From the NCBI GenBank assembly GCA_022072455.1, contig JAJVHY010000024.1, forward strand, positions 83,804-147,803: a stretch of 64,000 nucleotides of DNA, in the 5' to 3' direction. The position numbers and the translations under genes were made by a program. The stretch is from Verrucomicrobiia bacterium (lineage in GTDB: Bacteria; Verrucomicrobiota; Verrucomicrobiia; Palsa-1439). Positions 28,679 to 39,659 of the stretch are shown here, piece by piece. The first letter of the stretch is position 1. Every line of letters begins with the position of its first letter. The notes below the pieces were generated by a model that did no database searches, was not told where the DNA came from, and was given only the letters and a program-made list of their open reading frames with translations.

Positions 28679-31600
28679 TTGCGCGTGGAAACAAAAATAC
28701 ATCATAGACCATGGAACTTTTTCGTGTTGGCTTTGACACTCGCCACCACAGGACTGGCCGCGGATTTCAGCTGGACGAATACCGTTGCATCTGGCACCGC
28801 CAATTTCTGGACGAATAGCGCCAATTGGTTGCCCACAGCCAATTATCCTGGCCAGACATCAGTTGATAATGTCTACCTGACGAACAGCACGGCGGCCGGC
28901 ACCTCCTATACCAATATTTTAGATGCCGGGTTGGGGTTTACGATAGGGTCACTCGAAATTGCCAATAGCGGTGGCGGTTCCGCGTGGCTGGTGGTTACGA
29001 ACATGAACTTGACGAATTCCACACTGCTGGCCATCAGGACTGGTGGGCGGTTGCGGATTGATGCCGGTGGCGTTGTCACGGGAATTGCCGCTACGCTCAA
29101 TCGGGAAGCAGGACAAGTGTTTGTCAACGGCGGGACCTGGCACAGTGGCGGCACCGAAACTGTTGTCGGGAACGGCGCCTCGAATAATTTGGTTCAAGTT
29201 TACAACGGAGGAATGTGGAATTTAGCAGCGCAAAACTTGAGCATCGGCAGCGGGGCGGCGACGGGGAATGTGCTGCTGATTAGCGGGGGACAGGTCAGCA
29301 ACGTGGGCATCCTCAACGTTGCCGGCAACGCGACAGGGCGGAATACGTTGACACTCACGAATGGCGGCGGATTGGCGGTGCGGAGTCTGCTGGTCACAAA
29401 CAATGTCTATGGTGGCGCAACCAACTCGATCTTCAACTTTGCCGGAGGCACAATCCTCACCACTTCCAACGCCGCCAACCAAGTGGCGTCGCACCTCGTC
29501 ATCACCTCCAATCAGGTATTCGGGATCAACGGCACCTGGAACATGCTCGGCGGCACCAACCTCATCACCTCCACGCTCACTACCAACGGAAACGTTCTGA
29601 ATAGCGCGAATAACTTCCGTGGGTATGTCAATATCGGGAATAATTCCTCGTACGCTACGGTGAATGTCCAGAATGCGGTCTGGGATTTATTGGGGCCGAC
29701 AAACTGGGTCTCGGTTTTGAATGTCGGGACTTTTACCACCGCAGGCGGGACGACCGGTAATGTCCTGACCATCACCGACGGTGGCCAGGTTCTTGCCCCG
29801 ATGTTCCAGATCAGTCGTTTGGGCGACCGCGGGCTGAGTAATAAGATCGTCGTGGCCGGCCCTGGATCGGTACTTAGCAATACCGCAAGTATCTCCTCCA
29901 TGATTGGTGGCGCAGGAATGGGTAATCAATTGATCGTGACCAATGGTGGCACGGTCTACACCGCCAACTTCATTATTGGGAGCGGAACCACCGCGAGTAA
30001 CAATCATGTGCTGGTTAGTGACGTCGGTTCGGCGTGGTACAATACGGTCAACAACGGCAGTTCCATTGGTAGTTCAGGTGTTGGCAATCAGTTGGTCATC
30101 AGTAATGGCGGTTTGGTTACCCTCTTCGGCGGTTCCGGCCTGTTGAACATTGGGAACCTGGCAGGGGCCACCAGCAACTCACTGGTGGTCACGGGCAACG
30201 GTTCCACGTTTTCCAACACCTCCCGGATCCAAGTTGGCAACAATGGCGCCGGTAACTTCATGATCATTCGTGATGGCGCGACAGTGATGTCCGGCAACAC
30301 TTTCATCGGGGCCAATGCACTTGCCACCAATAACATGGTGCTGGTGACCGGCCCGGGCTCCAAGTGGAATATTGCGGGCGCCGCAACCGTTTCCGCTGTC
30401 GGCAGTTTTTCCACCGGCAACTCCCTGATCATTGAGACGGGAGGGAGCATTTCCAACCAGGGAACTTTCAGTATCGGAAGCCAAACCGGCGCGCAGAACA
30501 ATTCGCTGACAATTTCCAACGGTGGGGCGTTGATCACCGTAGGGTTGCTGACGGTTGGAAACACCACCAATGCCAGTGGCAACCGCTACAATGTCGGTGG
30601 CTTGGGGGCATTGAGCTACGCCACCAATGGGTTGATCAGAGTCGGCAACGATGGGGGTGGCTTCAACACAATGACCGTCACGAATGCTAACGCACAGGGC
30701 GCCAGTCTGCTGCTGGGCAATGGCTCGTCCAATAACACCGTCCAAATCCTCTCGCGCGGCCAATTAGCCGTGGCGGGAAGTGTTACCGTCGGATCCGGTG
30801 CGGCCACGGGAAATGTCTTGTTGGTTACCGGCGGCGGCGTACTTGAAGCGAATAGCCTCACGACTGGCGACGGCAGCGGCAACCTCCTCAGCAATTACGC
30901 CGGCATCTTTCAGTTTACGACGGCAACTCCCTTCATCACCAACAACGGTGCCGGCGGCGCCATCAGCATCCACGCTGGCACGATTTCCTTCCGTGCCATC
31001 ACCAATGCCAATGTCTGGGGCAGTCAGGGCGGTTCGACGGCCAACTCGTTGACCAACATCACGTATGTCGGTGAAAACGCTTTCCGGCTGAATGCCGCCT
31101 CAAACACCACCGCCGCCGCCTTCTCGCAAACGTACACCTTCCAAGCCGGCAGCAGCAGCAACTTTACCCGGCTGGAAATGATCAACGGCCGGACTGCTTA
31201 CCGGAATGGGAACGTTACCATTGGCGCGACCGGCGCATTTCTCGCCAGCAACACCTTCGCAACTGTAACCGGCACATTTACAAATCAGGGCTTGGCCGAC
31301 ATTGTTCAGGCGACAGTCGAATTTCAGAGCGCATTGGTCGTGGCGGGAACATTGAGTTTGACTGATGGCTACGTGATTGGCGGCGGTTCCAAAACGATTG
31401 CCGGCACCTTGCGTGGTTCTGGGAGCGTGGTCGGTGATGCAACTGTGACCGGGACAATCGCGCCAGGATTAAGTCTGGGAACACTCGTCTTTAGCAACAA
31501 TCTCACGTTAAGCGGAACCTACGCCGCGGAACTCGACGGCACGGGAACCGGTAACGCTGATCGGTTGATCGTGCACGACCTGCTGACACTGACTGGGGCG

Positions 31601-31843
31601 ACTCTGGATCTGAGTGAAATTGTCTCCGCCGATGACCAAGCTTACGTGATTGCCGAGTATGGGACTCTGGCGGGTACTTTTGCCACAGTGACCGGTATGC
31701 CGGGCGGGTACCAGCTTGACTACAACTACCAGAACGCAAACCTGATTGCGGTGGTCATTCCCGAACCCGGCACGCTCATACTGGTGGGGGTGGGGCTAAG
31801 CGGACTCTGGTTGATCAATCGGCGGCGCCGGTCATTTTCTTGA
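28679..31843 (+). CDS. PEP-CTERM secreted beta-helix/autotransporter-passenger-like repeat protein
   Basis: N-terminal signal, many GNxLxITNGG-type repeats, C-terminal VIPEPGTLILVGVGLSGLWLINRRRRSFS. Confidence 0.88.
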   Translation: MRVETKIHHRPWNFFVLALTLATTGLAADFSWTNTVASGTANFWTNSANWLPTANYPGQTSVDNVYLTNSTAAGTSYTNILDAGLGFTIGSLEIANSGGGSAWLVVTNMNLTNSTLLAIRTGGRLRIDAGGVVTGIAATLNREAGQVFVNGGTWHSGGTETVVGNGASNNLVQVYNGGMWNLAAQNLSIGSGAATGNVLLISGGQVSNVGILNVAGNATGRNTLTLTNGGGLAVRSLLVTNNVYGGATNSIFNFAGGTILTTSNAANQVASHLVITSNQVFGINGTWNMLGGTNLITSTLTTNGNVLNSANNFRGYVNIGNNSSYATVNVQNAVWDLLGPTNWVSVLNVGTFTTAGGTTGNVLTITDGGQVLAPMFQISRLGDRGLSNKIVVAGPGSVLSNTASISSMIGGAGMGNQLIVTNGGTVYTANFIIGSGTTASNNHVLVSDVGSAWYNTVNNGSSIGSSGVGNQLVISNGGLVTLFGGSGLLNIGNLAGATSNSLVVTGNGSTFSNTSRIQVGNNGAGNFMIIRDGATVMSGNTFIGANALATNNMVLVTGPGSKWNIAGAATVSAVGSFSTGNSLIIETGGSISNQGTFSIGSQTGAQNNSLTISNGGALITVGLLTVGNTTNASGNRYNVGGLGALSYATNGLIRVGNDGGGFNTMTVTNANAQGASLLLGNGSSNNTVQILSRGQLAVAGSVTVGSGAATGNVLLVTGGGVLEANSLTTGDGSGNLLSNYAGIFQFTTATPFITNNGAGGAISIHAGTISFRAITNANVWGSQGGSTANSLTNITYVGENAFRLNAASNTTAAAFSQTYTFQAGSSSNFTRLEMINGRTAYRNGNVTIGATGAFLASNTFATVTGTFTNQGLADIVQATVEFQSALVVAGTLSLTDGYVIGGGSKTIAGTLRGSGSVVGDATVTGTIAPGLSLGTLVFSNNLTLSGTYAAELDGTGTGNADRLIVHDLLTLTGATLDLSEIVSADDQAYVIAEYGTLAGTFATVTGMPGGYQLDYNYQNANLIAVVIPEPGTLILVGVGLSGLWLINRRRRSFS

Positions 31844-31903: not shown

Positions 31904-31989
31904 GGGGAGGTACCGAAGTGGCCAAACGGGGCAGACTGTAAATCTGCTGGCTTATGCCTTCAATGGTTCGAATCCATTCCTCCCCACCA
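31904..31989 (+). tRNA. tRNA-Tyr (GUA), integration target
   Basis: GGGGAGG/CCTCCCC acceptor, CAGACTGTAAATCTG anticodon arm, long variable arm, encoded CCA. Confidence 0.95.
31936..31989 (+). repeat. attL core (54 bp)
   Basis: CTGTAAATCTGCTGGCTTATGCCTTCAATGGTTCGAATCCATTCCTCCCCACCA identical to 39606-39659. Confidence 0.95.
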
Positions 31990-32053
31990 CCTACGCCCGC
32001 AAGGGCTTCTGCAATCCCACCACGCTAAACACGCAACGCATCACCGGGCGAAA

Positions 32054-32075
32054 TATACCCGCCCGTATACCCGCC
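32054..32075 (+). repeat. Left arm-type integrase site pair
   Basis: TATACCCGCC-CG-TATACCCGCC, 12-bp period; matches pair at 39465. Confidence 0.7.
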
Positions 32076-32154
32076 GGCATTTTGCTGGCGTGTAATCACA
32101 ACCTTGAAACACCAAGCGACCCGCGAGACAATCACGGGCAAACGATAAGCGGCA

Positions 32155-32230
32155 GCGAGGCGACGGCTTCGCGTAGGGCAGGGCGGGGCTATCTCCCCGC
32201 CCGGCCCACCGCTGCAAACGCTGGAGATAG
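32155..32230 (+). promoter_or_regulatory. Structured 5' leader with mutually exclusive hairpins over putative Shine-Dalgarno
   Basis: GCGAGGC-GACG-GCTTCGC (32155-32172), GGGCGGGG-CTATCT-CCCCGCCC (32181-32202), alternative CTATCTCC (32189-32196)/GGAGATAG (32223-32230). Confidence 0.5.
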
Positions 32231-32238
32231 ACAGCGAC

Positions 32239-33480
32239 ATGAAACGACAACAGAAACCGACCGAGGCGCAAGCTGAGATCATACAGCGAGCCGGGCTTGT
32301 CCCTTCAACCGTAACAGTCACCACCAAGCGCGCGGCGTTACCGCTGGCGATCACCTACCACGGCGACGGCGAGCCGTTGCATTACTGGATTGTGCGCGAG
32401 GGCGGGGCGTTGCGGTTTTCTGATACAAAGCCCACCACGCGCAAGCCCGGCACCACCGAACAAACCGGCGAGCAAGAGCCGGAAGCAATCGAGTTTTCCG
32501 GCGCACGCTACAACCCCGACAAGCTGGAAGCCGACTTGCGGCAATGCGGATTCCGAGCGGCAGAGGCGCGGGCAATCGTGTTGCAAGTTTGCGACGGCGA
32601 CACGGTAAGAGAAGCGGCGGCGAAGATCGGCAAAAGTCACGGCTGGGTAGGTAGCAAACGGATTCAGCGCAAGGTGAAGGCATTGCGGGCGGGCGAACCG
32701 TTGACGGCAACGCGAGCGGGCAGCAACACAGCGACGCCAGAACCCTACACGCCGTCAAGCCTACTTGACGAAGCCCGCTTGCAGTTGTGCATGACGAAAC
32801 GCACAGAAAAGCCGCTACGCTGGCCGTGGGATATTCACAAAGTCACCGGGCAACCACTGGCCGAACATATCGCAACCAGCTTGCGGCACCACCCTGACAG
32901 CCTGCTAATGGTGGAAGGGCGGTATTACGTTGCGGCATTGGTGGACCTACTCGAAGCCGCAAAAGCTGGGCAATGCGCCCACCGTGTGCGCGGCGTTGTG
33001 CCAGAGGGCACACCGGCAGAGAAGGCGGCGGCAGCGCGGCGGGCTTTGTCCATTCTGACAAGCCCGAAGTCCGGGCAATCCTACGAACTACCCACCGGCA
33101 ACCTTGACCTTGTGTTGCACCAATACTTCAAGCGGGTTGTCGAGTTGCAGCGGGAATGGAAAGCGAGTAACGAACCAATCCCCGCACGGCTGGAAAATAT
33201 CCGCGAAGCCCACCGCAAAGAATTGGAAGGCATCACCGACAAGCAATTGCGCGAGCTTATGGCGCACGACCCCTTCAACGGGGCGGCGCGACTGGCCGAG
33301 ATTGCGACCGGCTACAGCCGCGAACTTTTCGAGAAACGCTGCAAGCAAATCTGCACCCGCAAAGGCTTCAAGTCGTTTCTGAAAACCTTGAACGAAGGCA
33401 CCTACGATCACCTTATGCCCGGCTATGGCGCAAACTGGCGCGACCCGAAGCCCGGCAAAGTCCGCACGTTTCCCTACTAA
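32239..33480 (+). CDS. Element-encoded 413-aa protein of unknown function with central HTH-like segment
   Basis: VCDGDTVREAAAKIGKSHGWVGSKRIQRKVKAL resembles an HTH; no family recognised. Confidence 0.7.
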   Translation: MKRQQKPTEAQAEIIQRAGLVPSTVTVTTKRAALPLAITYHGDGEPLHYWIVREGGALRFSDTKPTTRKPGTTEQTGEQEPEAIEFSGARYNPDKLEADLRQCGFRAAEARAIVLQVCDGDTVREAAAKIGKSHGWVGSKRIQRKVKALRAGEPLTATRAGSNTATPEPYTPSSLLDEARLQLCMTKRTEKPLRWPWDIHKVTGQPLAEHIATSLRHHPDSLLMVEGRYYVAALVDLLEAAKAGQCAHRVRGVVPEGTPAEKAAAARRALSILTSPKSGQSYELPTGNLDLVLHQYFKRVVELQREWKASNEPIPARLENIREAHRKELEGITDKQLRELMAHDPFNGAARLAEIATGYSRELFEKRCKQICTRKGFKSFLKTLNEGTYDHLMPGYGANWRDPKPGKVRTFPY

Positions 33481-33508
33481 ACGCTTGTCCATTTTCCCAC
33501 CGTAACCC

Positions 33509-33524
33509 CCCGCCTTGCGGCGGG
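33509..33524 (+). terminator. Possible terminator hairpin after the 413-aa gene, no U-tract
   Basis: CCCGCC-TTGC-GGCGGG. Confidence 0.35.
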
Positions 33525-33582
33525 TGTTGGACGTTTCGCCGTATTGGTGAAAGGCAAGGTTGCCAACATCAAAACGGTGAAC

Positions 33583-33783
33583 ATGAACGACAACGAAAGA
33601 TTGTTGATTGAACGAAGGCGGCGCGGGCTGGCCGGCTGGGAGCTTGCGGCAGCGTCGCATATTTGCCCCACCACATATTCCAAAATCGAGAACGGGCAGC
33701 GCGAGGCGACGCACGACCAGAAACTTGCGATTGCCCGCACCTTAGGCGTTGAACCTGAAAAACTCTTTTCGAGGCTACCGTGA
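33583..33783 (+). CDS. XRE-family HTH regulator
   Basis: NDNERLLIERRRRGLAGWELAAASHICPTTYSKIENGQREATHDQKLAIARTLGVEPEKLF. Confidence 0.85.
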   Translation: MNDNERLLIERRRRGLAGWELAAASHICPTTYSKIENGQREATHDQKLAIARTLGVEPEKLFSRLP

Positions 33784-34031
33784 GTGCCCAGCAAGTTGCG
33801 CCGATACCGGCAGCGACGGCACTCACCGCCCCGCAACCGGAAAGACTTTTCACGCTCGCACAGATTCAAGCGGCGGGCGGCTTTTCACGCTCTACGCTCT
33901 ACCGACTGCGACACGGCGGCGGGCTTCGCGTTGTGACCGTGGGCGGCGTTACCCGTGTGCGGGAAAGCGACTGGCAACGCTTCCTTGACCGCTGGGCAAC
34001 GGCGACAACCGAAGGCGGCGACAATGTTTGA
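33780..34031 (+). CDS. AlpA/excisionase-like HTH protein
   Basis: LFTLAQIQAAGGFSRSTLYRLRHGGGLRVVTVGGVTRVRESDWQRFLDRW; GTGA overlap with XRE stop. Confidence 0.75.
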   Translation: MSAQQVAPIPAATALTAPQPERLFTLAQIQAAGGFSRSTLYRLRHGGGLRVVTVGGVTRVRESDWQRFLDRWATATTEGGDNV

Positions 34032-35892
34032 CCCCGCGACACTACCGAAACGCTCGCAAGACTTTCACGCGGGCAAGGCCGGCAACGGCACGCGCAACCG
34101 CGAGGCTTTCGAGGCCGGCTGCCAATGCCGAGACAGCGGCGCGACCGAAGGCGAAGCCCTTGCCTACGTTGAAACGGGCGCGGCGCGTTGCGGCTTGGAC
34201 TTGCACGAAGCCCGCAACGCCGTCAAATCCGCTTACAAGCAACCGGCCCGCGAGCCGATCACCAAAGGGCACAGCAAGGCCCCGCTTTCACGCCCAGCAA
34301 GCCCGGCAGCGAGCGCGGCGACGGCAGCGGCTACAAAGACCCCAGCGGCGACAGAAACGCCCGGCAAGCGGCGTGTCGTTGCGCGTTACGATTACACTGA
34401 CGCCAACGGCAATTTGCTTTACCAGGTTGAGCGCACCGACCCGAAGGGCTTCCGGCAACGTAGGCCGGACGGCAACGGCGGCTGGATTTACAATCTTGAA
34501 GGCGTGCGCCGCACGCTTTACCGGCTGCCGAAGATGGCCAGTGCGGGCGAAGTGTTGGTTGTCGAGGGCGAGCGCGACGTTGAAACCGCCGAACGGCTGG
34601 GCTTTGTCGCAACGTGTAACAGTGGCGGGGCCGGCAAGTGGCCGCAAGATCACGCGGCGCACTTTGCTGGAAAGCGGGTTGTCATCATCCCCGACGCCGA
34701 CAAGCCCGGACAGGAACACGCGCAAGCGGTTGCCAGAGAGTTGCACGGCGTTGCTGAAAGTGTCCGCGTGTTGCGATTGCCCGAAGGCGTCAAAGACGTT
34801 TCGGCATACGCTGAGACATTCAGCGACACGGCGGAACTTGCAGAGCGGCTTTCCGTTATGGCCGAGGGCGCGGCGTTGTGGACACCGAAGCCCGAAGCCG
34901 ACAAGCCGAGCGGGTTGCTGGTAGTCAACGCGGTTGACCTCCTCGCAACGCCGTTTCCGAAATCCGACGACATCGTTGCGGGCGTATGGCAAACCACAAG
35001 CAAGGCTTCGGCAAGCGCGCCGGCGAAGCTGGGCAAGACTTGTTTCACCACTGGCATATTTCTAGGGGCTGCCACGGGCCGCGACGTAATGGGCTTTCAC
35101 ATTCCGCGAGCGCGGCGGCTTCTATACTTCCAAGCCGAAGTCACCCCGCACAACCTACAAACACGGCTTGCCAAAATGCTGCGGGCGTTTGACGCCGACC
35201 CGGAACAACTGCGGCGCAATCTTCTTTTCTGCAATGACCCGCGCTTGAAGCTGACACGCCGAGCCGACCTTGACGCGATACGCGAAGCGATCAAGCGCAA
35301 CTCGCAAGACGCCCCGCTTGACGCAATCGGGTTTGACCCCGCCTACAAGTATCACGACGGCGACGAAAACAACGTGCAAGACGCAACGCGATTGTTTGAC
35401 GCCGTGGACGAAATCATTGCCGAGTTTGGCGTTGCGGTTTGGCTTGTGCACCATCACGGGAAGGGCAGCGGCGACGGACTGGCGACGCAAGCCCACCGCA
35501 ACCGGGGTTCAAGTGCCTTTGCAGACTGGCCCGACAGTCTGTTGACGTTGACGCCCGAAGATGCCGAAGCGGGCATTGTCAAATTGAGTTTCACGCTTCG
35601 CAACGCTGAAGAGCCGCCCGCAATGGCATTTCAACGCAACCCCGACACGCTTTGGTTTGACCCGTTGCCCGATCACCAGTTTGCCGGCAAGGGCAGCAAG
35701 GCCAAGATCACCGACGCCGAAGTTGCGGGCGTGATTGGCAAGGGCGCGGTTGCGTATCGCCAGCTTGTCGAGAAACTCCGCGAGGCGTTCACCGTGAGCG
35801 ACGGCACCGCACGGGCGACAATCCGCCGGGCGACGCAATCAAACGCAATCCGCAAGAATGAAGGGAGCGGGCTTTATGTTTCAACACGCTGA
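34024..35892 (+). CDS. Toprim primase-type domain fused to RepA/RecA-like ATPase
   Basis: Toprim LVVEGERDVETAERLGF...VVIIPDADKPGQEHA; ATPase APAKLGKTCFTTGIFLG...DAIGFDPAYKYHDGDENN...VWLVHHHGKGSG...GSSAFADWPDSLLTL. Confidence 0.85.
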   Translation: MFDPATLPKRSQDFHAGKAGNGTRNREAFEAGCQCRDSGATEGEALAYVETGAARCGLDLHEARNAVKSAYKQPAREPITKGHSKAPLSRPASPAASAATAAATKTPAATETPGKRRVVARYDYTDANGNLLYQVERTDPKGFRQRRPDGNGGWIYNLEGVRRTLYRLPKMASAGEVLVVEGERDVETAERLGFVATCNSGGAGKWPQDHAAHFAGKRVVIIPDADKPGQEHAQAVARELHGVAESVRVLRLPEGVKDVSAYAETFSDTAELAERLSVMAEGAALWTPKPEADKPSGLLVVNAVDLLATPFPKSDDIVAGVWQTTSKASASAPAKLGKTCFTTGIFLGAATGRDVMGFHIPRARRLLYFQAEVTPHNLQTRLAKMLRAFDADPEQLRRNLLFCNDPRLKLTRRADLDAIREAIKRNSQDAPLDAIGFDPAYKYHDGDENNVQDATRLFDAVDEIIAEFGVAVWLVHHHGKGSGDGLATQAHRNRGSSAFADWPDSLLTLTPEDAEAGIVKLSFTLRNAEEPPAMAFQRNPDTLWFDPLPDHQFAGKGSKAKITDAEVAGVIGKGAVAYRQLVEKLREAFTVSDGTARATIRRATQSNAIRKNEGSGLYVSTR

Positions 35893-35903
35893 CAACCCGG
35901 CGC

Positions 35904-35993
35904 GGTGCAGCGGTGCAACCCCTAAGGGTTGTTGCACCACCTGCACCACCAGTGCGGACGGTGCAGTTGCACCAAACTTGCACCACCTGCACC
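35904..35993. repeat. Iteron-like cluster, candidate replication origin or operator
   Basis: Eight GGTGCA/TGCACC hexamers at 35904, 35912, 35933, 35942, 35960, 35968, 35979, 35988, plus CAACCC-CTAA-GGGTTG hairpin. Confidence 0.75.
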
Positions 35994-36126
35994 AACACAC
36001 CGAGAAAGCAAAGACACACGGCGGCACGCCTAGACCCGCCCCCACAGGGTTCCCCCCTAGCCAAAGCACGCTCCTGCATTTGTGGGTCACAGCTGGCAAA
36101 AATATCTTCGAGGTCTAATTCCGCCA

Positions 36127-36960
36127 ATGAATAACACCACCCGCACCATATTGACCGAGGTACTAGCCGAAACCGACGCCCTGCTATGGCCGCTGCGCCG
36201 TCAAGGCGACGACCCATCGCAAGCTCAACTCGCCGCGCAACACGTCTATTTCCGCAAAGGCTTGCCCTATCGCAAGGCCGGCGACGGCAAGACCAGAATG
36301 GCGTTGCTGCGCGAACTAGAGGCATCCGGGCTTGTCATCGTGACCCGTGAGAATGGCCGCGCATCGCATTGGAAGCTCACCGATCACGCCGACGAAGTTA
36401 CCCGCGCCCTTGTGGGGATGCCGGGGCGCAAGGAATGTTTCACGGTCATGCGTCGCATGGTGAAGCTGGCCGATGCCGGCGACTATCTGCCAGCGACCAC
36501 CAGCGACGGTGCGCGATTTATCCGGGAAACGGATTTAGGCGGATTCACCTACACCGACAAAAGCTATTTAGACGCAGTGTATCGGCAACAAGCGGTACTT
36601 GCTTATGCGTGGCCGCGTGGCTGGGTGACTTCTGCGCTCGCTTGCGGTTATGGCCGGAGCAATTCACCAATGGCGCACGCCTTGACGGATGCCGGGAAAA
36701 CCGCGTTGACGATGCCAGCGACCAAGACCGCACTACCTAAGCGCGATGCCGCCCTTGCCGATCACTACTGCAACCGCACCACCGATCACGGCGAAGCATG
36801 GGAGTCGGCGCGACACAAGGAGCGCATGACGATTTATCTGCAACCGTATTTCGTCGGCTGGGAAACCGTCAACGAACTGAAAACCATTTCCGCCGGCACC
36901 GACGCCAGCGAAAAACCAGAACCAACCCGCCGGCAACCCCGGCAGAAAGCGACCCCATGA
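36127..36960 (+). CDS. Element-encoded protein of unknown function with winged-helix-like N-terminus
   Basis: GDGKTRMALLRELEASGLVIVTRENGRASHWKLTDHADEVTRAL resembles a winged helix; directly downstream of iteron cluster. Confidence 0.65.
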   Translation: MNNTTRTILTEVLAETDALLWPLRRQGDDPSQAQLAAQHVYFRKGLPYRKAGDGKTRMALLRELEASGLVIVTRENGRASHWKLTDHADEVTRALVGMPGRKECFTVMRRMVKLADAGDYLPATTSDGARFIRETDLGGFTYTDKSYLDAVYRQQAVLAYAWPRGWVTSALACGYGRSNSPMAHALTDAGKTALTMPATKTALPKRDAALADHYCNRTTDHGEAWESARHKERMTIYLQPYFVGWETVNELKTISAGTDASEKPEPTRRQPRQKATP

Positions 36961-37223
36961 GTCCGAAAATATCACAACCCCCCAACGCGGCATTTTTGAC
37001 CGCCAGGAACATCGCCCGGCAAATCGCCTGCCATTGCATCGCGTGTTCCCAACCGATGTTGCACGGCCCCGGCGAGCCGGCTTTGTTTCGCGGTGGAAAG
37101 CCAATCTGCCGGAAGTGCGCCGGCCCCGCTGGCACGCGACTGTCAGTTTTACTTTCGGAAGCCCCTAGCATGAACGCCGAAAATTGTCTGGCCGGTGGAT
37201 TGAAACCGCGGAGCCGCGCATGA
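36957..37223 (+). CDS. Small zinc-ribbon-like protein
   Basis: CIAC...CRKC pairs; ATGA overlap with preceding stop. Confidence 0.55.
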   Translation: MSPKISQPPNAAFLTARNIARQIACHCIACSQPMLHGPGEPALFRGGKPICRKCAGPAGTRLSVLLSEAPSMNAENCLAGGLKPRSRA

Positions 37224-37411
37224 TTAACCGCACCGCCTTTGTCCAAGTCGCCTGTACGAAATGCGGACGGCTGGAGAATCTCACGCCCGATCACATCGCC
37301 CGCATGAAGGCCGCTGGCATCCCGTATAGCTGCAAGACCGGCATTGGGTGCTCACTAATCCGAAATCCGAAAAACCAAACCCTAACGAATAAGGAAAATA
37401 ACAAGTTATGA
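37220..37411 (+). CDS. Small zinc-ribbon-like protein
   Basis: MINRTAFVQVACTKCGRLENLTPDHIARMKAAGIPYSCKTGIGC; ATGA overlap with preceding stop. Confidence 0.55.
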   Translation: MINRTAFVQVACTKCGRLENLTPDHIARMKAAGIPYSCKTGIGCSLIRNPKNQTLTNKENNKL

Positions 37412-37878
37412 TTCAACCCCTGAATATCAGTGCAAAAGTATCCCGTGCCGCGCCCACCGTTGCCGAGAAGCGAGCCGCCGCTGCCGCCAAAGCTGCCGAC
37501 GACCGCGCTGCCGAAGCCCGGAAACGCCAGCGCGAGGCCGACGCCGAGGCCGACAAACTGCGGGCCCGGCTTCACACGGTCATTGCCGAAATCGGACAGG
37601 AAAAGGAATGGCAGAACAAAATCCGGCACACTTGCACCCGGTCTGTCGAGTACAACGGCGAGATCGGGGAGATCGAAATTGCCGCCGTGTTGGATGAAGC
37701 ACTTGGCAACGCCCCCGATGCACTCGCCATGCAAAAAGCCGAATCACTCCGAGAGCGACGCAAGGCCATGATTGCCGACGTGAAAAAGTTTGTGAAGCAA
37801 CTTCACGCCGTGCAAGCCAAGATCCCGGCACTCGAAGCCGAACGTCACGAACTCCTGCGACAGCTGGGAGTTTACTAA
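37408..37878 (+). CDS. Coiled-coil protein of unknown function
   Basis: Ala/Glu/Arg-rich heptad region EKRAAAAAKAADDRAAEARKRQREADAEADKLRARL and C-terminal helix; ATGA overlap. Confidence 0.6.
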   Translation: MIQPLNISAKVSRAAPTVAEKRAAAAAKAADDRAAEARKRQREADAEADKLRARLHTVIAEIGQEKEWQNKIRHTCTRSVEYNGEIGEIEIAAVLDEALGNAPDALAMQKAESLRERRKAMIADVKKFVKQLHAVQAKIPALEAERHELLRQLGVY

Positions 37879-37884
37879 CCATGC

Positions 37885-38025
37885 GGGGACGCGACGCGGC
37901 AGGTACAGGGCCCGTTTACCGTGGAGCCAGCTGTGCCGGCGTCGCGCCCCATACCGGGCGGCGGCGGTATTCCGTCGCGTGATAGCTGGCCGGGCGGTTG
38001 ACGGCGAAAGCCCGACGCCCGGCCC
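37885..38025 (+). ncRNA. Candidate structured RNA/structured DNA region between operons
   Basis: GGGGACGCGACGCGGCA (37885-37901)/TGCCGGCGTCGCGCCCC (37934-37950); ATACCG/CGGTAT; GGCCGGGCG/CGCCCGGCC with GGC-GAAA-GCC apex; GCCAGCT (37926-37932)/AGCTGGC (37984-37990). Confidence 0.5.
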
Positions 38026-38041
38026 TGTCACCAACACCGGG

Positions 38042-38070
38042 CTTGAATAGCGTGTGAATCGTGTTACGAT
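38042..38070 (+). promoter_or_regulatory. Candidate promoter overlapping palindromic operator for RHH-int operon
   Basis: CTTGAA-N17-TACGAT and ATCGT-GTT-ACGAT (38058-38070), ~23 bp upstream of RHH start. Confidence 0.45.
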
Positions 38071-38092
38071 ATTGGCGAAGGGAGAAACACGA

Positions 38093-38257
38093 ATGACAAA
38101 ACCAACACGAAGCAAAGAGGGGCCGGTAGTCCGGTTTTCTGTTTCGCTTGCGCCCGAAGTGGCCGCGAAGCTGAAAGCCTACTGCGGCAAACACGAACGC
38201 ACGCAAAGCTGGGTAGTCGAGAAACTGATTGCCCGTTACTTGGAGAAACTAACATGA
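38093..38257 (+). CDS. Ribbon-helix-helix (CopG/Arc-like) regulator
   Basis: VVRFSVSLAPEVAAKLKAYCGKHERTQSWVVEKLIARYLEKL. Confidence 0.75.
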   Translation: MTKPTRSKEGPVVRFSVSLAPEVAAKLKAYCGKHERTQSWVVEKLIARYLEKLT

Positions 38258-39543
38258 GCGCAAGCGGCTTTGAACGCATTGCTGGCGGATTGTACCGGCG
38301 CAACGGGTTGCTTTACGCCCGCGTGCGGGATAATGGAAAACGCACTTGGCGCGGCACCGGCACCAACGACTTGACCACCGCCCGCAAGATTCTGAAAAAG
38401 TGGCGCGAAGAGCAAGTGCTCCAGCGGCACGGTATCGAGACACAAGAAACGGCATTGAACCGCAACCGCTTGACCGTGGCGAAAGTGATTGAGACTTACA
38501 CACTGGCGGGTTGCCCGACTAAGAAGATGCAACCGAAGGCCCCCTACACCGTGCGGAAAGAGGGGCACGCATTGAACCCCGTACGCCGTTACTTTGGCGA
38601 GCGGCTTGCCGTCACGTTGAAGCTTTCCGATTGCGACGAATACCGGCAGTGGCGCAACACGGGCGGCTACAAGATCGAAACGCTGAAAAAAAACGGCGAG
38701 CCGACGAAGCGCAAGGCACGCGGCGGCGACCGGGGCGTTGACTTGGAGTTGACCGCCTTGAGCAACGCTTTCAAGCTGGCCGTGCGCCGTGGCGAGTTGA
38801 AGGCAAACCCGCTGGCGGGGCGAACGCTTTACAGCGTGGCCTCGAACGTGCGCCACTGCCGCGACGTTGCGCCGACGCCCGAAGGCTTGGCGGCGATCAC
38901 CGGCTGGCTACGCAAGAGCAACGAGCCGGCAGTTGCCGACTTCGTGGCGTTTCTCGCCTACAGCGGCTTGCGGATTGGCGAGGCGTTGCCGTTGCCGTGG
39001 GCGGCGGTAAATCTTGGCGAGGGGCTTGTGCAAGTGCGCCGGGAAAAACACGGCTGCAACCCGTGGGTTGCGATCACGCCCGCACTCGAAACACTCTTGC
39101 GCGACATGGAAGGGCGGCGGGGGACTAGTGCGTTGCTGTTTCCGTCACCACACGACCCCAGCAAACCCCGCGATCAAGCGCGCATCAACCGGCGAATCAC
39201 GGCGGCGATTGCGGCGTTGAACAAGACGGCAGAAGCCGAAGGCAAGCCGAAGCTGGGGCACGTCACCCCGCACGGGCTGAGATCGTACTTTGTCACGCAA
39301 GCGCGGCAGAGCGGATTGACCGACGCGGAGATTGCAATGCTGATAGGCGACAAGACCGGCCCCAGCATTATCGCCAGCACCTACGGCGACTTGCGCGACG
39401 ATCACTTACTGGCGCAAGCGCGGCGTATTCGCCACACGTTCAACCCCGGCGAAGGCGTTTCCGGTATACCCGCCGGTATACCCGCGTGCCCCCAAGAGTC
39501 ACCCCGAACCCACACAAGCCCGCTAGTGGCGAAAGTGGCGTAA
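38254..39543 (+). CDS. int: Tyrosine recombinase/integrase
   Basis: YSGLRIGEALPLPW, HGLRSYFVTQARQSGLTDAEIAMLIGD, STYGDLRDDHLLAQARR; R, HxxR and Y catalytic motifs; next to att. Confidence 0.93.
   Translation: MSASGFERIAGGLYRRNGLLYARVRDNGKRTWRGTGTNDLTTARKILKKWREEQVLQRHGIETQETALNRNRLTVAKVIETYTLAGCPTKKMQPKAPYTVRKEGHALNPVRRYFGERLAVTLKLSDCDEYRQWRNTGGYKIETLKKNGEPTKRKARGGDRGVDLELTALSNAFKLAVRRGELKANPLAGRTLYSVASNVRHCRDVAPTPEGLAAITGWLRKSNEPAVADFVAFLAYSGLRIGEALPLPWAAVNLGEGLVQVRREKHGCNPWVAITPALETLLRDMEGRRGTSALLFPSPHDPSKPRDQARINRRITAAIAALNKTAEAEGKPKLGHVTPHGLRSYFVTQARQSGLTDAEIAMLIGDKTGPSIIASTYGDLRDDHLLAQARRIRHTFNPGEGVSGIPAGIPACPQESPRTHTSPLVAKVA
39465..39486 (+). repeat. Right arm-type integrase site pair inside int coding sequence
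   Basis: TATACCCGCC-GG-TATACCCGCG, encodes GIPAGIPA; same 12-bp period as left arm. Confidence 0.7.
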
Positions 39544-39605
39544 GATGCACACGGGCAAAACCATGCGGACTCTACAAGACACGGCGGGGCACGCCCCGCT
39601 TGCCC

Positions 39606-39659
39606 CTGTAAATCTGCTGGCTTATGCCTTCAATGGTTCGAATCCATTCCTCCCCACCA
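39606..39659 (+). repeat. attR core, partial tRNA-Tyr 3' half
   Basis: 54 bp identical to 31936-31989. Confidence 0.95.

Follow-up and report, generated by a model that had tools for sequence, protein, structure and literature searches.

The 64,000-nucleotide stretch of contig JAJVHY010000024.1 from a Verrucomicrobiia bacterium that was analysed here (the window) contains, at positions 31936-39659, an intact integrative element, which is inserted in a tRNA-Tyr gene, is bounded by two attachment (att) copies and measures 7,670 bp. The element belongs to a modular family that is apparently new to Verrucomicrobiota, and we lean slightly towards reading it as a satellite-like phage hitchhiker, which would excise, replicate and be packaged by a helper phage. 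The source is a metagenome-assembled genome (MAG; 4.8 Mb, about 96% complete), and the element is known from its assembled sequence alone. A preliminary description of the region had proposed a perfect 54-bp repeat as its boundary; the coordinates were borne out, the repeat proved to be the 3' part of tRNA-Tyr, and exactly two copies of this direct repeat are present in the whole 4.8-Mb genome. The borders comprise the following features.

31904-31989, + strand: tRNA-Tyr (gta), the host target gene, identified with ARAGORN; the left att copy is formed by its 3' part, starting at about the anticodon.
31936-31989, + strand: attL, the perfect 54-bp repeat, with corresponding repeats in 8/8 complete elements of the integrase clade described below.
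32054-32075, + strand: left arm-type sites, two tandem copies of TATACCCGCC, 12 bp apart; 13-bp match to the right arm (0/200 shuffles).
39465-39486, + strand: right arm-type sites, two tandem copies of TATACCCGC, 12 bp apart, within the 3' end of int.
39606-39659, + strand: attR, the displaced 3' part of tRNA-Tyr and second copy of the 54-bp repeat.

The AT skew also marks the element, being about 0 in the left flank, 0.13-0.28 inside and negative in the right flank, with shifts at both borders. As expected of a tRNA-targeted tyrosine-recombinase element, we found the catalytic R/K/H-R/Y residues in the integrase (R240, K265, H340, R343 and Y377, invariant across 13 relatives), a duplication of the tRNA 3' end at the att sites and an empty site in relatives. 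The gene to the right of attR encodes a FIST-domain protein, and in G004 and G003, two genomes of the same family as the window's genome, an intact tRNA-Tyr is directly followed by the FIST gene. In a further genome, G010, the tRNA-Tyr/FIST interval holds a different element of 15,490 bp, whose integrase is 79% identical to that of the window, compared with 59% identity for the FIST protein of G010 and 72% for RecR of G004, which belongs to the genus of G010. The check for empty sites and syntenic elements that had been recommended for this locus therefore succeeded on both counts. In the relatives, orthologues without att repeats do not occupy this locus, and the genes do not lie inside a larger prophage, so that the reservation that the genes might be resident, or part of a larger known prophage or integrative and conjugative element (ICE) family, does not hold in full. 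To the left of the element, a gene for a repetitive 1054-aa protein ending in PEP-CTERM (28679-31843) lies between tRNA-Gly and tRNA-Tyr; since these two tRNA genes adjoin in G003 with nothing between them, it represents a second insertion at this locus.

The element encodes ten genes, all on the + strand and mostly coupled by ATGA overlaps, with the tyrosine integrase as the last gene; the co-orientation and the terminal integrase had been correctly anticipated, whereas the count had been put at about 11. The gene at 36957-37223 was added to the calls by hand from its ATGA couplings. The genes and the candidate origin are as follows.

32239-33480, + strand: p413, in the cargo slot; weak DUF6906-like N-terminus and HTH_23.
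33547-33783, + strand: XRE-type regulator; HTH_3, E=1.2e-6; PHROG transcriptional regulators.
33780-34031, + strand: AlpA/excisionase-like HTH_17 protein; HTH_17 above the cut-off; phrog_66 excisionase and transcriptional regulator, 7.4e-8; overlaps the XRE stop (GTGA).
34024-35892, + strand: primase-helicase with N-terminal region, Toprim and RepA-like AAA_25 hexameric helicase; AAA_25 2.8e-26; phrog_239 DNA primase/helicase 1.2e-42; RSF1010-type RepA 1g8y 8e-4.
35902-35995, no strand: iteron cluster, candidate replication origin; 8 TGCACC/GGTGCA in about 90 bp.
36127-36960, + strand: p292 (277 aa from this start), winged-helix-like, first of a four-gene cassette; 30% relative in L186.
36957-37223, + strand: p88, small CxxC zinc-ribbon-like protein; ATGA overlap on both sides; positional counterpart p97 in L186.
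37220-37411, + strand: p63, second small CxxC protein; ATGA overlaps; positional counterpart p86 in L186.
37408-37878, + strand: p156, coiled-coil-like protein; positional counterpart p172 in L186.
38093-38257, + strand: ribbon-helix-helix (RHH) protein; RHH_1, Arc-like; ATGA overlap with int; kept before Int in close relatives.
38254-39543, + strand: tyrosine integrase; PF00589 3.5e-11; phrog_1 3.6e-33.

Overlaps of the ATGA type join p292/p88, p88/p63, p63/p156 and RHH/int, the XRE/AlpA overlap is GTGA, and the AlpA and primase-helicase genes overlap as well. Searches against Pfam and PHROGs confirmed the predicted XRE, AlpA/HTH_17, Toprim plus AAA_25 primase-helicase and integrase assignments. 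They likewise upheld the claim that capsid, terminase, relaxase and type IV secretion system (T4SS) genes are missing, as none was found with Pfam and PHROGs or, for relaxase and mating-pair genes, with NCBIfam. No gene was called for the open reading frame at 35858-36118 (p86 of the open reading frame list), which overlaps the iterons. Promoter and terminator scans gave chance-level results only.

The iterons, located directly downstream of the primase-helicase stop, form the strongest repeat cluster of the element, with a repeat score of 21.9 compared with at most 9.1 in any of 60 Markov shuffles, which keep dinucleotide transition frequencies only approximately. A different iteron set is present at the same position after the replication gene in the G013 element and in a terminase-bearing element of the window's own genome (C19), and the tRNA-Met element of the family carries iterons inside a DnaD/O-like gene; the clusters of all four elements exceed every shuffle. 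Hairpin formation at the candidate origin was unexceptional (z -1.5). Judged by position and repeat score, the cluster is probably the replication origin and provides the best evidence that the element could be a self-contained, working replicon. The primase-helicase is about 26-32% identical to phage primase/helicases, and other members exchange it for PrimPol-PriCT, a phrog_29234-type protein, DUF5906, or DnaD-like and DnaC-like helicase-loader genes.

Integrase relatives with 42-79% identity led to eight complete elements including that of the window (6.6-15.5 kb), whose att repeats of 45-62 bp are tRNA 3' halves.

tRNA-Tyr: window element, 7,670 bp.
tRNA-Tyr: G010 element, 15,490 bp, one att mismatch.
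tRNA-Met: 10,670 bp.
tRNA-Thr: 6,556 bp.
tRNA-Cys: two elements, 14,804 and 7,726 bp.
tRNA-Arg-tcg: 14,531 bp.
tRNA-Arg-cct: 15,082 bp.

Partial members were recovered too; in these, int is likewise followed, after about 80-230 bp, by a tRNA 3' half. Typically, the tRNA is followed by a variable region with cargo and then by XRE, AlpA, the replication genes, RHH or XRE, Int and the att remnant. Arm-type repeats, which are mostly tandem, are located 52-83 bp inside attL, where the left arm sites of the window element have comparable positions, and 130-186 bp before attR; they exceed shuffles in seven of the eight complete elements, the exception being the G010 Tyr element. Gene calls in the relatives were made with an in-house script that may miss small genes, and reported identities vary slightly between programs. 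Named integrase matches above 42% were nearly all from Verrucomicrobia MAGs, including Pedosphaera; one is placed in Pontiellaceae, and another carries the label Acidobacteria. Phage and plasmid collections yielded no integrase match at E <= 1e-5. A literature search on verrucomicrobial phage satellites, with subscription papers and preprints outside its coverage, retrieved nothing relevant. The earlier suggestion of an undescribed satellite or plasmid-like family, probably from Verrucomicrobiota, thus stands as far as an integrative, replication-competent-looking and apparently undescribed verrucomicrobial family is concerned, given the named relatives, the syntenic tRNA elements and the empty sites, but the choice between satellite and plasmid-like is not settled by sequence.

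Two further observations concern the family at large. Four elements from three integrase families have similar excision lengths, namely 7,670 bp (window), 7,666 bp (G000:C19), 7,676 bp (L186) and 7,726 bp (L074), which possibly reflects a packaging-length constraint or chance; the similarity was spotted post hoc, and other elements span 6.6-15.5 kb. Related 72-aa helix-turn-helix proteins are encoded just inside attL of two tRNA-Arg elements (L072:3125-3340 and L167:75-290).

In other members, the attL-side slot is filled with type IIG restriction enzymes (MmeI-like and Eco57I-like), an MkoA-matching helicase, a methylase with a ResIII helicase, PIN with Phd/YefM, or a HEPN protein, so that its contents comprise restriction enzymes, helicases/nucleases and toxin-antitoxin genes. 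By position, p413 can be guessed to be a defence cargo gene; searches of 141 related genomes, viral contigs, phages, plasmids, PADLOC, NCBIfam and PDB yielded no relative of it, and its structure model was poor (mean predicted local distance difference test score, pLDDT, 41) and was not used. The tRNA-Met element encodes tandem duplicated proteins of 346 and 348 aa with no family assigned beside its MmeI-like restriction gene (L067:4033-6126). The p292-p88-p63-p156 order recurs after a RepA-like helicase in L186, a 7,676-bp tRNA-Leu element of G010 with an integrase of another family, where only p292 is alignable (30%) and the other three proteins match by position, the two small ones also by their CxxC motifs. 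For p292, this is the single clear relative among 286 genomes, and none was found in viral contigs, phages or plasmids; matches to PadR-like winged helices were weak and not significant, and the structure model was poor (pLDDT 40).

The case for phage hitchhiking, which we regard as probable, comes from relatives, which contain genes for defence against phages and, in a single instance, an enzyme for packaging phage DNA. Replication genes of phage type are swapped between members, and the remaining proteins of the seven complete relatives include none of the head, tail, terminase, relaxase and T4SS families among the Pfam and PHROG matches listed (25 of 27 PHROG families). The relative with the packaging enzyme, L141 (IMGVR_UViG_3300025162_001867 in IMG/VR; 8.4 kb), has a clade integrase 60% identical to that of the window and encodes AlpA, a RuvC-like resolvase, a primase, a TerS-like protein, TerL, a serine recombinase, RHH and Int; the interval from TerL to int is free of virion genes. 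The window's genome itself harbors a 7,666-bp tRNA-Thr element (G000:C19:60957-68663; L269/L270) that contains only int, AlpA, replication genes, an ERCC4-nuclease fragment, TerS and TerL and no virion genes, and which by this gene content is a candidate terminase-only mini-satellite; a 12.3-kb relative with a 72% identical TerL is located at tRNA-Leu in G010. According to a review (PMC11389934), terminase genes suggest mobilisation by phages.

According to the life cycle that we propose, a signal, probably phage infection, would relieve the XRE repressor, whereupon Int, directed by AlpA and the RHH protein, would cut out the element as a 7,670-bp circle with an attP in which 39605 is joined to 31936. 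Replication of this circle by the primase-helicase would start from the iterons, and multimeric element DNA would be packaged by the helper phage, a step to which we give about even chances. The host would be repaid by the variable slot next to attL, which in relatives contains restriction and toxin-antitoxin genes; here, p413 would be cargo of this kind. More tentatively, and with somewhat less than even confidence, we suggest a phylum-specific, undescribed satellite family that works as a cassette system, with one integrase clade, interchangeable replication modules and a defence slot, some of its members being reduced to integrase, AlpA, a replication gene and TerS plus TerL for self-packaging into helper procapsids; p413 and the p292-p88-p63-p156 cassette would then be new satellite functions.

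Several observations weigh against helper-phage packaging. The window element itself has no terminase, packaging or capsid-redirecting gene, so that satellite transfer rests on the terminase-bearing relatives and not on its own content. Virion genes might lie beyond the L141 contig, since it is cut at its left end, and its att sites were not seen. TerL homology alone is no satellite marker, because TerL relatives in other verrucomicrobial families are partly located in ordinary-looking prophages; TerL relatives of L141 in IMG/VR are weak (about 24-32%) and name no helper. No helper prophage was found in the window's genome (about 96% complete), where the sole TerL match is the mini-element. 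Finally, a clade integrase also ends a 66.7-kb tRNA-Cys element, G010:C11:58853-125529 (L312, L313, L163, L071), a candidate ICE by its MobF relaxase, TrbI/VirB9/TrbL/VirB4-like genes, methylase and helicase. This integrase is nested among those of the small elements in the tree, and because the same clade drives a 66.7-kb ICE, the integrase cannot settle the route of transfer. Int, AlpA and primase, which had been taken as hallmarks of phage satellites and of replicating integrative elements, are indeed present, but a satellite does not follow from them alone.

The candidate ICE also bears on the strongest alternative, which we consider rather unlikely, namely an integrative mobilisable element (IME) that excises and replicates and leaves by conjugation via an origin of transfer (oriT) on which a resident ICE or plasmid would act with its MobF relaxase and T4SS. 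The same-clade integrase of that ICE (MobF, TrbI, VirB9-like, TrbL, VirB4-like) at tRNA-Cys and a MobF relaxase in the window's genome (G000:C20) are consistent with this route, and RHH proteins can serve as relaxosome accessories. However, the eight complete small elements contain no relaxase or mobilisation gene, and the RHH protein gave only a sub-threshold mobilisation match and is better explained, by its ATGA overlap, as a partner of int. Slightly less probable still is an integrative plasmid that switches between integration and existence as a self-replicating circle, and for which transformation or generalised transduction, with no specific helper, would be the passive means of spread. 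The RepA-like helicase, whose nearest solved structure is RSF1010-type RepA, and the candidate iteron origin would fit such a plasmid, but no partition or copy-control genes were recognised, none of the integrase, p413 and p292 was found in the 72,556 plasmids searched, and the primase-helicase architecture is common in phages. A temperate-phage remnant that lost its virion genes, as the phage-type primase and regulators and the small size might suggest, is very improbable and was rejected, since the ten genes are all open and tightly coupled between two intact ends, and decay would not have yielded the same set of genes eight times over, in elements placed independently of one another at five tRNA species.

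Hitchhiking elements, satellites among them, have been described chiefly in Proteobacteria and Firmicutes. If Verrucomicrobiota of soil and freshwater harbor a family of small replicating tRNA elements that are loaded with defence genes, this biology would reach a further phylum, one that is large and poorly cultured. The integrase clade, att sites, arms, origin and terminase-only relatives provide markers for searching virome data, and the use of a single integrase clade by an ICE as well as by small elements is relevant to how such elements originate.

Among known mobile elements, the helicase of RSF1010 (IncQ) shares the AAA_25 domain with the window primase-helicase, but p292 downstream of it is not a recognised RepC, and phage DNA primase/helicases (phrog_239) share the Toprim-helicase fusion at only about 26-32% identity. 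Of the tRNA-using ICEs and IMEs, the tRNA-Cys ICE of G010 has an integrase of this clade and also targets a tRNA 3' end, but it is 9-fold larger and carries a MobF relaxase and T4SS, neither of which the window element has. P4-like satellites (PMC8628076) have a tyrosine integrase, an AlpA/Vis-like protein, a primase-helicase and a defence hotspot in common with it, whereas psu, delta, sid, epsilon and alpha (PF03288) were not found in the element with Pfam, PHROGs and NCBIfam. Gram-negative phage-inducible chromosomal islands (PICIs; PMC6092414) likewise combine an AlpA-type regulator with a replication gene followed by an origin (here iterons) and lack structural and lytic genes; they carry defence cargo as the family does, some of whose members are near 15 kb. 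Their int is divergent from the replication module, in contrast to the window element with all ten genes on the + strand and int at the 3' end beside the att remnant, and the window element also differs in having no TerS. PICIs are characterised, in addition, by induction that depends on a phage, by interference and by packaging at high frequency. Phage-inducible chromosomal minimalist islands (PICMI) of Vibrionaceae (PMC10803314) match it in size (6-8 kb), in the core of int, AlpA and primase, in having no capsid remodelling or virion genes and in a small gene overlapping int by ATGA. They differ in phylum, in their site, which is fis compared with tRNA-Tyr beside a FIST-domain gene, and in their primase, which is DUF3987/DUF5906 in the published detection model compared with Toprim/AAA_25, although the relative L088 does have DUF5906; PICMI are induced by a helper phage and packaged as concatemers, and for the window element a helper phage is presumed. 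Because it lacks tested defining features of PICMI (fis site, primase family), PICIs (divergent int) and P4-like satellites (psu/sid/alpha), we class it no further than as an integrative element that targets a tRNA gene, replicates and represents a new family, with a presumed satellite function, which by analogy would resemble a PICMI or a minimal PICI in its working, with int, AlpA, primase, origin, small size and a gene overlapping int.

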